This document shows, piece after piece, positions 16,540-29,076 of a stretch of DNA of 64,000 nt (position 1 is its first letter; every line of letters starts with the position of its first letter). This DNA is from Myxococcota bacterium. GTDB lineage: Bacteria; Myxococcota_A; UBA796; CAJQPC01. The translations under genes were made by a program, and so were the position numbers. The stretch spans positions 25,530-89,529 of the forward strand of contig JAKLKD010000002.1 in assembly GCA_023150845.1 (NCBI GenBank), given 5' to 3'. The notes under the pieces were generated by a model. It was given only the letters and a program-made list of their open reading frames with translations, was not told the DNA's origin and did no database searches.

Positions 16540-21351
<4,812 letters not shown>

Positions 21352-22421: not shown

Positions 22422-24515
22422 ATGGACCCGATGATCCGCCGCATCCGAAACATCGGCATCCTCGCGCACATCGACGCCGGGAAGACCACGCTCACCGAGC
22501 GGATCCTCACGGCGACGGGCCGTATCCGCATCCCCGGCGAGGTCGATGACGGCACGGCGACGATGGACTTCATGGTCCAGGAGCGTGAGCGCGGCATCAC
22601 CATCGGGGCCGCGGCGACCCGGGTGGGCTGGCGTGACCACATCATCCACCTCATCGACACCCCGGGGCACGTCGACTTCACCATCGAGGTCGAGCGCTCT
22701 TTGCGTGTGCTCGACGGGGCGATCGTCGTGCTCTCCGCGAGCGAAGGGGTCCAGCCCCAGACCGAGCACGTCTGGGCCCAGGCTGATGCCCGCCGGGTGC
22801 CCCGCCTCGTGTTCATCAACAAGCTCGATCGGGTCGGCGCGGACTTTGAGCGCTGCCTCGCGGATCTCCAGACCCGCCTGAACGCCCCGGCGGTGCCGTT
22901 CCAGCTCCCGGTCATCGAGGACGGGCGCCTGCGGGGCGTGATCGACCTGGTGCGCTCCCGCCTCTTGACCTTCACCCCGAAGGATCGTGGGGTGATCGTG
23001 CAGGCGGCGCCCGTGCCCCCGAGTCTGGAGGTCGAGCTAGCGTTTGGGCGAGAGGCCCTCCTCAACGCCGCCTTACACAGCGACGCGGTGATGGAGCGGT
23101 ACCTCAGCGCCGGAGAGGTGACCCCCGCCGAGCTCTACGCCGACGCCCGCCTGCGGGTGCTCGACGGGTCGCTGGTGCCGGTGTTCTGCGGCGCGGCGAA
23201 GCACCACCAGGGCGTGCACCCGCTCCTCGACGCCGTCGTCGAGCTGCTCCCGTCCCCGGCGGATCTGGGCCCCTGCTACGGCCTGAGCGCCGTCGGCCGG
23301 GGCACCTCCGAGCGTCGCGCCCCTGACGTCTCCGAGCGCGCCTGCGCCTTGGTCTTTAAGCTCGGGCACGACCGCGACGAGGGCCTGATCGCCTTCACCC
23401 GGGTGTACTCCGGGGCGCTGCGTGTCGGCGACGTCGTGCTCAACCCGCGCACGGGCGGGCAAGACACGATCACCCAGCTCTTCGCCGCCCACGCCGAGGA
23501 GCTCGAGCCCGTGAGCGTCGCCGAGGCGGGCACGATCACCGTGGTCGCCGGGCTCACCGCGCCGACGACCGGGGACACCCTCTGCGACCCCGCCGCCCCC
23601 CTGCTCCTGGAGCCGCTCACGCCGCCCTCCCCGGTGCTCGGCGTGGTGATCGAGGCCGAGACCGTAGAGAGCGAGGAGCGCCTCAACGCCGCCCTGCAGC
23701 GCCCGCTGCTAGAGGACCCGACCCTGCGCCTCACCGTTGACCCCCAGACCGGCCAGCGGGTCCTGGAGGGCATGGGTGAGCTCCACCTGGAGATCGCCGT
23801 CGAGCGCCTGCGTCGGGAGCACGAGCTCGCCCTGCGCGTCGGCAAGCCCCGGGTCACCTACCTCCTCGCGCCGGGCCTCGCCGCGGAAGGGGAGGGGACG
23901 CACCGCCTCGTGACGGGCGCCGGGGAGCAGCGGGCGACGCTCCAGGTCCGCGTCACCCCCCAGGCCGACCAGGCCGCGGTGACCATCGAGCCCGGCTGGG
24001 CGGCGATCGCCCTGCCTGAAGATTACGCCGAGGCGATCGTCAGCGCGCTGCGCGCTGGGGTCGAGCGCGCGCTCGGCGGCGGGGCGCCTTTGGCCTTCGC
24101 GCGGGTCTCCGTGAGCGGCGGATCGTGTGAGCCAGGGCCTGGGGCGCTGATCGCCGCCCGGGTCGCCGCGGGCCTCGCCTTGGACGACGCGCTGAAAAGA
24201 TCGTCGATCATGGTGATGGAGCCGATCATGCGCCTTGAGGTTCGCACGCCGGGCGACTATATGGGCGGGGTCCTGGGTGACCTCCAGGCGCGACGCGGGA
24301 TCGTCACCTCGACGACGCCGAGACCGCCGCTCCAGGTCATCGAGGCCGACGTGCCCCTCGCGGAGCTGGTTGGTTACACAACCGCCCTGCGATCGGCCAC
24401 CCAAGGCCGCTCGTCGGCCAGCATCCACTTCTCTCGTCATTCCCCAGCGCCCCCTAAGCTCTCTCGCCTCATCTTCGAGCCCCTCGTGGGTGATCGTGTA
24501 AAGAGCGAACCGTGA
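22422..24515 (+). CDS. fusA: Elongation factor G, divergent family member
   Basis: NIGILAHIDAGKTTLTERIL, DTPGHVDFTIEVERSLRVLDGA, NKLDR, domain V MEPIMRLEVRTPGDYMGGVLGDLQARRG; str-operon position. Confidence 0.93.
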   Translation: MDPMIRRIRNIGILAHIDAGKTTLTERILTATGRIRIPGEVDDGTATMDFMVQERERGITIGAAATRVGWRDHIIHLIDTPGHVDFTIEVERSLRVLDGAIVVLSASEGVQPQTEHVWAQADARRVPRLVFINKLDRVGADFERCLADLQTRLNAPAVPFQLPVIEDGRLRGVIDLVRSRLLTFTPKDRGVIVQAAPVPPSLEVELAFGREALLNAALHSDAVMERYLSAGEVTPAELYADARLRVLDGSLVPVFCGAAKHHQGVHPLLDAVVELLPSPADLGPCYGLSAVGRGTSERRAPDVSERACALVFKLGHDRDEGLIAFTRVYSGALRVGDVVLNPRTGGQDTITQLFAAHAEELEPVSVAEAGTITVVAGLTAPTTGDTLCDPAAPLLLEPLTPPSPVLGVVIEAETVESEERLNAALQRPLLEDPTLRLTVDPQTGQRVLEGMGELHLEIAVERLRREHELALRVGKPRVTYLLAPGLAAEGEGTHRLVTGAGEQRATLQVRVTPQADQAAVTIEPGWAAIALPEDYAEAIVSALRAGVERALGGGAPLAFARVSVSGGSCEPGPGALIAARVAAGLALDDALKRSSIMVMEPIMRLEVRTPGDYMGGVLGDLQARRGIVTSTTPRPPLQVIEADVPLAELVGYTTALRSATQGRSSASIHFSRHSPAPPKLSRLIFEPLVGDRVKSEP

Positions 24516-24762
24516 TCCTCCTGCGCAAGAGCCCCTCTGAACCTGCCCCCGAACGCGCCGCTGATGCGGCAGAGAGGGGAAAGGTGATCTTCAGGGTGGC
24601 CAACTCCGCAACGACCGGCTAAGCGCGGTTGTTGCGTCTTCTCGGAGTCGCTGTCCACCCCCCCCGGACAACCACCCCGAACAGCCCGAATCCATCGAGC
24701 CCGCCGCGCCGGCCATCCACCGAGCAGGCTGGTACGTCAGAAACGAACAGGACCGTCATCTC

Positions 24763-25077
24763 ATGGCCAGCACCAACAAGATTCGTATTCGTCTCAAGGC
24801 CTACGACCACAAGCTGCTGGATCGGAGCGCCGGGGAGATCGTTGAGACCGCTCGCCGCACTGGCGTGCGTATTCGGGGCCCCTTCCCCCTTCCCACCACG
24901 GTCTCCCGCTGGACGGTTCTTCGTGGCCCTCACGTCGACAAGAAGTCCCGTGAGCAGTTCGAGCGCCGCACGCACCACCGCCTCCTCGACATCCTTGAGC
25001 CCACTCAGCAGACCGTGGACGCGCTCATGAAGCTCGACCTCTCCGCTGGTGTTCACGTCGAGATCAAGCTGTCCTGA
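24763..25077 (+). CDS. rpsJ: 30S ribosomal protein S10
   Basis: [30 protein letters not shown]. Confidence 0.98.
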
Positions 25078-25161
25078 GCGGACACCCTTCCCACTGATTC
25101 AGTCGGGCGCCTCCTCCTTGAGTCCAAGGAGCGATAGCTGGCGTCACGATGGAGCTCAAAG

Positions 25162-25785
25162 ATGCCTACGATTGACGTAGTCAACACTGCCAAGGAGACG
25201 GTCGGCTCGGTCGAGCTGCCCGACGACATCTTTGGCGTCGAAGTGAAAGAGCACCTCTTCTACACCGTGGTGCGGTACCAGCTCGCGAACCGTCGCGCTG
25301 GCACCCACAAGGTGAAGTCCCGGTGCGAGGTGTCCGGCGGTGGTCGTAAGCCCTTCAAGCAGAAGGGTACCGGCCGCGCTCGTCAGGGCACGATCCGCGC
25401 TCCCCAGATGCGGGGCGGCGGCATCGTCCACGGGCCGACCCCCCGGGACCACGGCTTCAAGGTCTCCAAGAAGGTCCGCCGCGCGGCCCTCTGCAGCGCC
25501 CTCTCCCGGCGCGTGCAGGAGTCCAAGCTGACGGTCTTCAACGCCTTCGAGCTCTCCGCGGTCAAGACCAAGGAGTTCCGCAAGGTGATGGACAGCTTCG
25601 GCTTCGACGATCTGCTGCTCATCCTCCCCGAGAAGGACAACGCCGTCTACCTGTCGGCGCGGAACCTTCCCGACGTGCAGGTGCTGCCGGTCGCCGGGCT
25701 CAACGTCTACGACGTGCTCAAGCACAAGAACATCGCGGTCACCAGCGCTGCGGTCGACTCCATCGTGTCGCGGCTGGGGAGGTGA
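25162..25785 (+). CDS. rplD: 50S ribosomal protein L4
   Basis: KGTGRARQGTIRAPQMRGGGIVHGPTPRDHGFKVSKKVRR. Confidence 0.97.
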   Translation: MPTIDVVNTAKETVGSVELPDDIFGVEVKEHLFYTVVRYQLANRRAGTHKVKSRCEVSGGGRKPFKQKGTGRARQGTIRAPQMRGGGIVHGPTPRDHGFKVSKKVRRAALCSALSRRVQESKLTVFNAFELSAVKTKEFRKVMDSFGFDDLLLILPEKDNAVYLSARNLPDVQVLPVAGLNVYDVLKHKNIAVTSAAVDSIVSRLGR

Positions 25786-25788
25786 GAG

Positions 25789-26088
25789 ATGGCGCAGATT
25801 CATGATGTCCTCCTCCGTCCGCTGACCACCGAGAAGGGCGCCGTCCTGGAGTCCTCCGAGAACACCTACGTCTTCGCCGTTGGCCTCAAGGCCAACAAGA
25901 TCCAGATCAAGGCCGCTGTTGAGGCCTTCTTCGGGGTGAGCGTCGAGGCGGTGCGGACTTCGGTGGTCCGTGGCAAAAACAAGCGTTTCGGTCGCCACTC
26001 CGGGCGTCGTTCTGACTGGAAGAAGGCGTACGTCAAGCTCGCGAGCGGCGACGTGCTGAACTTCTTCAGCGACGAAGCTCAGGTCTGA
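25789..26088 (+). CDS. rplW: 50S ribosomal protein L23
   Basis: [47 protein letters not shown]. Confidence 0.96.
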
Positions 26089-26104
26089 GGTCATTGAGGT
26101 AGAC

Positions 26105-26929
26105 ATGGGAACCAAGAGCTTCAAGCCTACGAGCAACGGCCTCCGCTTCAAGACGGTGTCGGACTTCGCTGAGATCACCACGAGCTCCCCGGAGCGTTCG
26201 CTGGTCCTCCCGATGCGTGGCACTGGCGGTCGTAACAACTTCGGCCGCGTCACCAGCCGCTTCCGCGGCGGTGGTCACAAGCGCCGTTACCGTCTCATCG
26301 ACTTCCGTCGTGACAAGCAGGGCGTGCCCGGCCGCGTCGCGTCCGTGGAGTACGATCCCAACCGCACCGCGAACATCGCCCTCATCCAGTACATGGACGG
26401 CGAGAAGCGGTACATCCTGCACCCCGTCAACCTGAACGTCGGCGACACCATCGTCACCAGCGACCAGGCTGACATCAAGCCCGGGAACGCGATGCGCCTC
26501 GCCTCCGTCCCGCTGGGCACCTGGGTGCACAACGTGGAGCTCTACCCCGCTCGCGGTGGTCAGCTCTGCCGGTCCGCCGGGAGCTACGCTCAGGTGATGG
26601 CGAAGGAGAACAGCTATGTCCTCCTCCGTCTGCCCTCCGGCGAGCTCCGTCGTGTCCACGAGAACTGCCTAGCCACCATCGGCCAGGTCGGTAACCTCGA
26701 GCACGAGAACATCTCTCTGGGTAAGGCGGGTCGCGCTCGGTGGCTGGGGCGTCGTCCTCACAACCGCGGCGTCACCATGAACCCCATCGACCACCCGCAC
26801 GGTGGTGGTGAGGGCAAGACCTCCGGCGGTCGTCACCCCGTGACGCCCTGGGGTCAGCCCACTCGTGGATACAAGACTCGCTCGCGCAAGAAGCCGAGCA
26901 CCGCCTTCATCGTCAAGCGCCGTAAGTAG
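26105..26929 (+). CDS. rplB: 50S ribosomal protein L2
   Basis: [56 protein letters not shown]. Confidence 0.99.
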
Positions 26930-26943
26930 GTTCAGGAGTTCTC

Positions 26944-27225
26944 GTGGCACGCTCAATCAAGAAGGGCCCCTTCGTGGATGCCCACCTGGAGAAGAAGGCG
27001 GTGCTCGCCCGGAGCTCCGGCCAAGGCGCCCCTGTCGTCAAGACCTGGAGTCGGCGCTCTACCATCCTCCCCGACTTCATCGGGTTGACGTTCGCGGTTC
27101 ACAACGGTAAAAAGTTCGTGACCGTGTATGTGACGGAGAACATGGTCGGGCACAAGCTCGGCGAGTTCGCCCCTACCCGTACCTTCTTCGGCCACGCCGC
27201 GGATCGGAAAACAAAGGTGCGCTGA
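26944..27225 (+). CDS. rpsS: 30S ribosomal protein S19
   Basis: [63 protein letters not shown]. Confidence 0.98.
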
Positions 27226-27310
27226 GCGCGCGAGGGGTCGCGCGACAGTCGCGGCCTACGCGCTCCACAGCGTGCCCATCACTTCGCTCACGGAGCGATA
27301 GGGTCATCAA

Positions 27311-27664
27311 ATGGAGTCTACAGCCATTCTCCGATTCGCGCGGGTGTCGGCCCAGAAGGCCCGCCTCGTGGCCGATCTGATTCGCGGTCGGGACGTTGGG
27401 CAGGCGCTTGAGGTGCTGACGTTCACCAACAAGAAGTCCGCCCCGCTCATCAAGAAGCTCATCGAGTCTGCGGTCGCCAACGCCGAGCACAGCTCCAAGG
27501 TCAAGTCCAGCGAGGTCGACATCGACGCTCTGTACGTCAAGTCGATCATGGTTGACCAGGGGACCACGCTTCGTCGTTTCCGGCCTCGCGCGCAGGGTCG
27601 GGCCACCCCGATCCGCAAGCAGACCGCCCACATCACCGTGGTCCTTGGGACGCGGGAGGAGTAA
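27311..27664 (+). CDS. rplV: 50S ribosomal protein L22
   Basis: [61 protein letters not shown]. Confidence 0.97.
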
Positions 27665-27670
27665 GTCGTC

Positions 27671-28312
27671 ATGGGTCAAAAAGTTCACCCTGTCGGCTTC
27701 CGAGTCGGCATCGTTCGTGGTTGGGATGCCCAGTGGTATGCCGACAAGAACTACCAGCGCTTCCTCCATGAGGACGTCGCGATCCGGAAGTACGTCAAAG
27801 AGAAGTACGCGCAGGCGAGCATCTCTCGCGTGACCATTGAGCGCGCCGCCAACAAGGCGAAGGTGTTCATCCACGCGGCGAAGCCTGGCATCATCCTCGG
27901 CAAGCGCGCGACCGGCCTGGAGAGCCTGCGGAGCGATCTGCAGAAGCTCACGTCCACCGAGATCTACCCGAACGTCATCGAGGTTCGGAAGGTTGAGACG
28001 GACGCCCAGCTCGTGGCGGAGAACATCGCCGCTCAGCTCGTGAAGCGTGTGTCCTTCCGTCGCGCCCTCAAGAAGGCGATGACCCAGGCGACGCGCTCCG
28101 GCGCCAAGGGCGTCAAGGTTATGTGCAGCGGGCGTCTCGGCGGGGCTGAGATGTCTCGTCGTGAGTGGTACCACGAGGGACGAGTTCCCCTTCACACCCT
28201 CCGTGCCGACATCGACTACGGCTTCGCTGAGGCGAAGACCACCTACGGTGTCATCGGCGTCAAGGTCTGGGTGTTCAAGGGTGAGATTCTGCCCGGTGAC
28301 GATGAGCGTTGA
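27671..28312 (+). CDS. rpsC: 30S ribosomal protein S3
   Basis: [45 protein letters not shown]. Confidence 0.98.
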
Positions 28313-28342
28313 GGCCGTCCTGGCCCAGGAGTGTTCAGTACC

Positions 28343-28759
28343 ATGCTGTCTCCCAAGCGTGTCAAGTACCGCAAGCAGCAGAAGGGCAGGATGAATGGGC
28401 TGTCGTACCGCGGCAGCGACGTCTCCTTCGGCGAGTTTGCTCTTCAGGCCACAGGTTGTGGCCGCATCACCGCGCGTCAGCTCGAGGCGGCGCGTATCGC
28501 GTTGACCCGTCACGTGAAGCGCGGTGGTAAAGTCTGGATCCGGATCTTCCCGGACAAGCCCATCTCCAAGAAGCCGGCCGAGACCCGAATGGGTAAAGGT
28601 AAGGGCGCTCCTGAGCTGTGGGTCGCGGTGATTCAGCCTGGTCGCGTCTTGTACGAGATCGAGGGTGTCGCCGAGGACGTGGCCATGGAAGCTCTTCGTC
28701 GCGCTGGCCACAAGCTTCCGCTTGAGTGGCGTGTCGTCAAGCGGGAAGGGGTCATCTGA
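28343..28759 (+). CDS. rplP: 50S ribosomal protein L16
   Basis: [30 protein letters not shown]-like [26 protein letters not shown]. Confidence 0.98.
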
Positions 28760-29076
28760 TGAAGTACTCTGAGCTCACAAGCCTCTCTGACGAGCAGCTT
28801 GTTCACAAGGAGCTGGCGCTTGAGCGCGAGCTCACGGCTTTCCGCTTCCGGCTCTTCACCAACCAGCTGGACGACAACTCCAAGCTGAAGAAGATCCGCA
28901 AGGACATCGCCCGCGTTCAGACCGCGGCTCGCGCTCGCGAGCTGGCCCAGGGGCTCGCCCCGAACGGTCTGCGGGACCGCTTTAAGGCTACGTTCCAGGC
29001 CCAGGCCCTCAGCGGCCGTCAGGAGGGATCGTCCTTCCTCAAGGGTGTGGTTGACAAGGCTGGCGGTAACGAGTAA
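28759..29076 (+). CDS. rpmC: 50S ribosomal protein L29 with long C-terminal extension
   Basis: [60 protein letters not shown] overlap with rplP. Confidence 0.9.
   Translation: MKYSELTSLSDEQLVHKELALERELTAFRFRLFTNQLDDNSKLKKIRKDIARVQTAARARELAQGLAPNGLRDRFKATFQAQALSGRQEGSSFLKGVVDKAGGNE

Follow-up and report, generated by a model that had tools for sequence, protein, structure and literature searches.

S10 operon in the window

Few bacterial gene orders are as conserved as that of the S10 cluster, whose canonical arrangement begins rpsJ-rplC-rplD-rplW; L3, the product of rplC, is an essential initiator of ribosome assembly. In the window, i.e. the whole 64-kb stretch of DNA that was analysed, rpsJ, rplD, rplW, rplB, rpsS, rplV and rpsC were found in the canonical order, while the position between rpsJ and rplD, usually occupied by rplC, is vacant (Table 1). 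This agrees with the earlier note on this DNA, which had placed 84 nt between the end of rpsJ and the start of rplD; the gap is exactly of this length.

Table 1. Features at the S10 operon junction and at the relocated rplC locus.
Feature	Location	Strand	Remarks
rpoC	16540..21351		RpoC insertion
fusA	22422..24515		str operon position
fusA-rpsJ interval	24516..24762		tuf absent
rpsJ (S10)	24763..25077	+	NCBIfam NF001861/TIGR01049 equivalog; last gene ahead of the vacant rplC position
rpsJ-rplD spacer, 84 nt	25078..25161	+	usual rplC site; without terminator or promoter pattern
7-bp hairpin CTCCTTG-AGTC-CAAGGAG	25114..25131	+	in the rpsJ-rplD spacer
rplD (L4)	25162..25785	+	NCBIfam TIGR03953 equivalog; immediately after rpsJ
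remaining S10 operon	25789..29076	+	canonical order: rplW, rplB, rpsS, rplV, rpsC, further r-protein genes
rplC (L3)	G000:C54, about 18884-19528	-	TIGR03625, 214 aa; outside the window
rplC leader	G000:C54, 19525-19582	-	outside the window

The spacer contains the short hairpin previously described there, which folds as proposed; folding of the whole 84-nt spacer gave a z-score of -1.96. In the congener G001 the corresponding hairpin is ACCCTTG-AGTT-CAAGGGT, with two pairs altered on both sides relative to the hairpin of the window, while in the other genomes of the order the rpsJ-rplD gaps are 0-76 nt long and the hairpin is absent. Because it is kept in the congener and absent from the other order genomes, the hairpin is, on this sequence comparison, a genus-level element and no scar of rplC. 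A terminator role is ruled out as well, since neither an intrinsic-terminator nor a promoter pattern was found in the region 24500-25300 and the hairpin is confined to the genus.

Some other features were observed upstream of the junction. The RpoC protein carries an insertion of ~230 aa (residues about 557-783), which interrupts the alignment with the RpoC profile and has no match among Pfam families or PDB sequences. The fusA gene encodes a divergent EF-G, scoring 615.9 bits, below the equivalog cut-off of 659.4 bits. The tuf gene is absent between fusA and rpsJ in the window and likewise in G001 and G002; in many relatives from the order, the C-terminus of EF-Tu is encoded directly before rpsJ, and many relatives have contigs that end 90-190 nt ahead of rpsJ, as would fit a duplicated tuf.

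Relocation of rplC

A profile search of the genome found no L3 in the window and a single L3 gene on another contig, C54. Its product scores 264.2 bits against the TIGR03625 cut-off of 142.9, residues 6-208 matching positions 1-202 of the 202-position profile, and aligns over its full length with the L3 chains of solved ribosomes. Being full-length and above the cut-off of this equivalog family, it is by sequence a bacterial L3 (uL3), which bears out the statement of the earlier note that the gene must have moved. Since the end of the window is also the end of contig C179, the rpsJ and rplC loci are not linkable in this assembly. In relatives carrying both loci on one contig (G002, G007, G021, G026, G029, G032 and G036), about 14-47 kb separate rplC from rpsJ, and the two are for the most part convergently oriented.

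The breadth of the relocation was assessed in a sample of 113 genomes of the phylum, of which 105 contain both rpsJ and L3. In 104 of these, L3 is encoded away from rpsJ, where for genomes with an unread S10 locus 'not adjacent' means different contigs or distance. The only exception, G047, belongs to a separate class and has rplC beside rpsJ within a complete canonical S10 order; its L3 groups with those of Desulfuromonadales, and the second of the two sampled genomes of this class has no L3 in its assembly. In three records named as Myxococcota (L065, L066 and L071), the other S10 genes are also absent beside rplC. In this locus set, the canonical order was observed at almost every locus from other phyla. 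In Bradymonas sediminis FA350 (PMC7188933; taken as G046, 5,045,683 bp), rpsJ is followed by rplD as in the window and rplC lies 1.67 Mb away, but this organism differs from the order in the neighbours of rplC and in the absence of the leader described below. The best reading of these gene orders is that the relocation of rplC is ancient, dating from early in the history of the phylum, and nearly phylum-wide in the sample. None of the open-access papers found describes an S10 operon without rplC for this phylum.

The new surroundings of rplC vary from group to group. In the order and its class-mate G042, a common gene string is present in whole or in part, comprising a cluster of genes for FHA-domain and TPR proteins followed by rplC, scoA/scoB, guaB and the genes of a TRAP transporter. 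Many other families of the phylum have a gene for an FtsJ/RlmE-like 2'-O-methyltransferase after rplC, as seen in 13 loci (L173, L177, L179-L183, L186, L187, L208, L209, L215 and L217); the member tested scores below the RlmE equivalog cut-off. Possibly, the two genes form a functional pair acting around the ribosomal A-site region.

Two other explanations of the vacant site have to be considered. The earlier note had allowed for a deletion or misassembly, and this metagenome-assembled genome does consist of 444 contigs, with rplC and rpsJ on different ones. However, the separately assembled congener has the same 84-nt rpsJ-rplD junction, and in the single-contig genomes G046 and G111 rplC is megabases away from rpsJ, which already refutes such an artefact. 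The comparison of gene order in sister genomes, suggested in the same note, gave a consistent result, since rpsJ adjoins rplD, without rplC, in all 35 order genomes having both genes; adjacency was likewise seen in each of the 50 directly read S10 loci (30 from the order and 20 from other families), none of which has rplC at the site. Together with the conserved new neighbourhood of rplC, these data leave the probability of an assembly error or local deletion practically nil. Thus, of the earlier interpretation the move of rplC stands, while its alternative of a deletion or misassembly and its treatment of the vacancy as a feature of one genome do not. It could also be supposed that the native rplC was lost and a foreign L3 was acquired by horizontal transfer, given that Actinomycetota are among the best named matches of L3 beyond the phylum and that two family groups (f15 and f16/f34) have L3s placed, with weak support, apart from the main L3 clade. 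Against this, a tree of 76 L3 proteins, based on this single gene and weak in its deep branches, unites the L3s of the order and class in one supported clade (97/87), which joins most other L3s of the phylum at 94/90. Acquisition of a foreign gene is therefore rather improbable, and the tree favours relocation of the native gene.

A conserved leader hairpin upstream of rplC

In all 37 order genomes containing the gene, rplC starts with a hairpin of ~45-65 nt that overlaps the Shine-Dalgarno site. The element is composed of CGUA, one base (A, C or U), a variable stem-loop, C(A/U/G)A, UGCG, AGG or GAG, and 4-8 nt preceding the start codon, so that CGUA...AUGCG is found ahead of the start in 37/37 genes. 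The lower stem CGUA/UGCG is invariant in the order, and thus by itself uninformative on pairing; the internal loop, N on one side and C-N-A on the other, is asymmetric. The upper stem occurs in compensated variants, namely GACG/CGUC, GAAG/CUUC, GGCG/CGCC, GUCG/CGAC and GAGG/CCUC. In an alignment of 26 leader sequences, 93% of the cells are paired, compared with 26-46% in slid control alignments, six pairs are altered on both sides, and a covariation of 0.250 was obtained, versus 0.092 +/- 0.017 after shuffling. Folding of single sequences returned the structure in four of five examples.

A covariance model of the leader (R1) matches 37 of the 39 order genomes, the remaining two having no L3 in their assemblies. 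In 35 of the 37, the R1 site is unique and directly upstream of rplC; two weak extra matches were found among the 39 genomes. None of the weak extra matches recorded overall (G020:C511, G034:C466, G050, G073, G128 and G019:C47) is at rplC, and inspection of that on G020:C511 did not find an r-protein gene there. The best R1 score in the window is 9.6 bits, which is at chance level. Elsewhere in the phylum sample, R1 was not found before rplC; most families with a relocated rplC have no recognisable leader, indicating that relocation does not require it. The rplC gene and leader of the order were also seen in a record titled Bifidobacterium breve (L094), whose title is almost certainly wrong.

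A related element is present before rplC in 7 of the 10 genomes examined from f17, a family distant from the order. Its pattern, CG(c)GA - N - GA.. stem .. UC - CAA - UCCG, has the same internal loop as the leader of the order, with a bulged C added and a lower U-G pair replaced by G-C; the lower stem, which shows no variation among the order genomes, therefore differs on both sides between the groups. The pairs of the two groups were counted by script, the joint alignment (A4) being unused, as MAFFT was unable to place the bulged C of f17. A model built from the seven f17 sequences (R2) gave no clear match before rplC in other families examined. Covariation supports a conserved RNA structure in both the order and f17, and the structure of the leader hairpin may be regarded as well supported by these alignments.

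Putative function of the leader

The relocation, its breadth, the conserved neighbourhood, the structure of the leader and its single rplC-specific position were computed directly. The preferred reading, with a probability of about 0.7, is an early departure of rplC from the S10 operon, after which it became an independent gene with a leader RNA of its own that probably acts autogenously. Outside the S10 operon, rplC would lose the operon promoter and feedback control, which may be the reason why it carries a 5' leader RNA of its own. The leader, which is supposed to act in the mRNA, is a hairpin of two parts, the lower stem (CGUA/UGCG) extending into the Shine-Dalgarno sequence. Free L3 present in excess would bind at the asymmetric internal loop and stabilise the hairpin, which would then block ribosome entry and repress translation of rplC, so that the output of L3 could be matched to ribosome assembly.

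L3 is proposed as the ligand because the motif precedes only one r-protein gene; Eckert and Weinberg (PMC7247131) assigned ligands by this criterion. As expected for an r-leader, the element is consistently positioned in the 5' region of rplC among the order genomes with this gene (37/37), and its covariation supports a conserved RNA structure. On balance, it appears somewhat favoured that the element represents a new class of ribosomal leaders with L3 as the ligand, which arose or was kept after the exit of rplC and diverged in two distant groups of the phylum. No family of Rfam 15 matches it. None of the 20 leaders described in PMC7247131 is assigned to L3, and the only occurrence of rplC in its table of the 20 motifs is as part of an Archaeoglobi motif for an L4 operon. 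A review from 2024 on the extraribosomal functions of r-proteins (PMC10931766) mentions uL3 in assembly only. An autogenous leader for L3 was thus not encountered in the literature found.

Alternatively, the element might be an RNA answering to another r-protein or to temperature, or a constitutive initiator of translation. L3 is a candidate ligand, and mimicry of the L3 site of 23S rRNA is unsupported, since the sequence-and-secondary-structure models R1 and R2 have no significant match in the order's own 23S rRNA, located by pattern search. Yet the element occurs essentially only before rplC, an r-protein gene standing by itself. The published ligand calls were made on this kind of basis, and these alternatives are considered unlikely. 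The partly palindromic character of the element and its proximity to the gene could also suggest a DNA operator or part of a promoter. This is very improbable, since the element extends over the Shine-Dalgarno site, 4-8 nt ahead of the start codon, its loop varies by 25 nt, and its upper stem covaries next to an asymmetric internal loop.

The near phylum-wide exit of rplC offers a natural test of the purpose of the S10 operon, and the leader suggests how stoichiometry may be maintained after this exit. If L3 does bind the leader, one more r-protein would be added to the known leader ligands. The displacement of rplC is also a simple gene-order marker for the phylum, including the cultured predator Bradymonas.

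Comparison with known regulatory systems

The r-leaders of L20, S15, S4 and L31 (PMC7247131) are likewise small structured elements directly before an r-protein gene, and share with the rplC leader a covarying stem, conserved unpaired residues and overlap with the ribosome-binding site. The rplC leader differs from known r-leaders in the lack of an Rfam family, in the identity of the downstream gene, rplC, and in its putative ligand, L3. In Escherichia coli, the S10 operon is under feedback control by L4, exerted via a leader before rpsJ; an Rfam search did not recognise an L4-type leader before rpsJ of the window. The other S10 genes are arranged here in the usual order but, unlike in the canonical operon, rplC stands alone elsewhere in the genome with its own leader.
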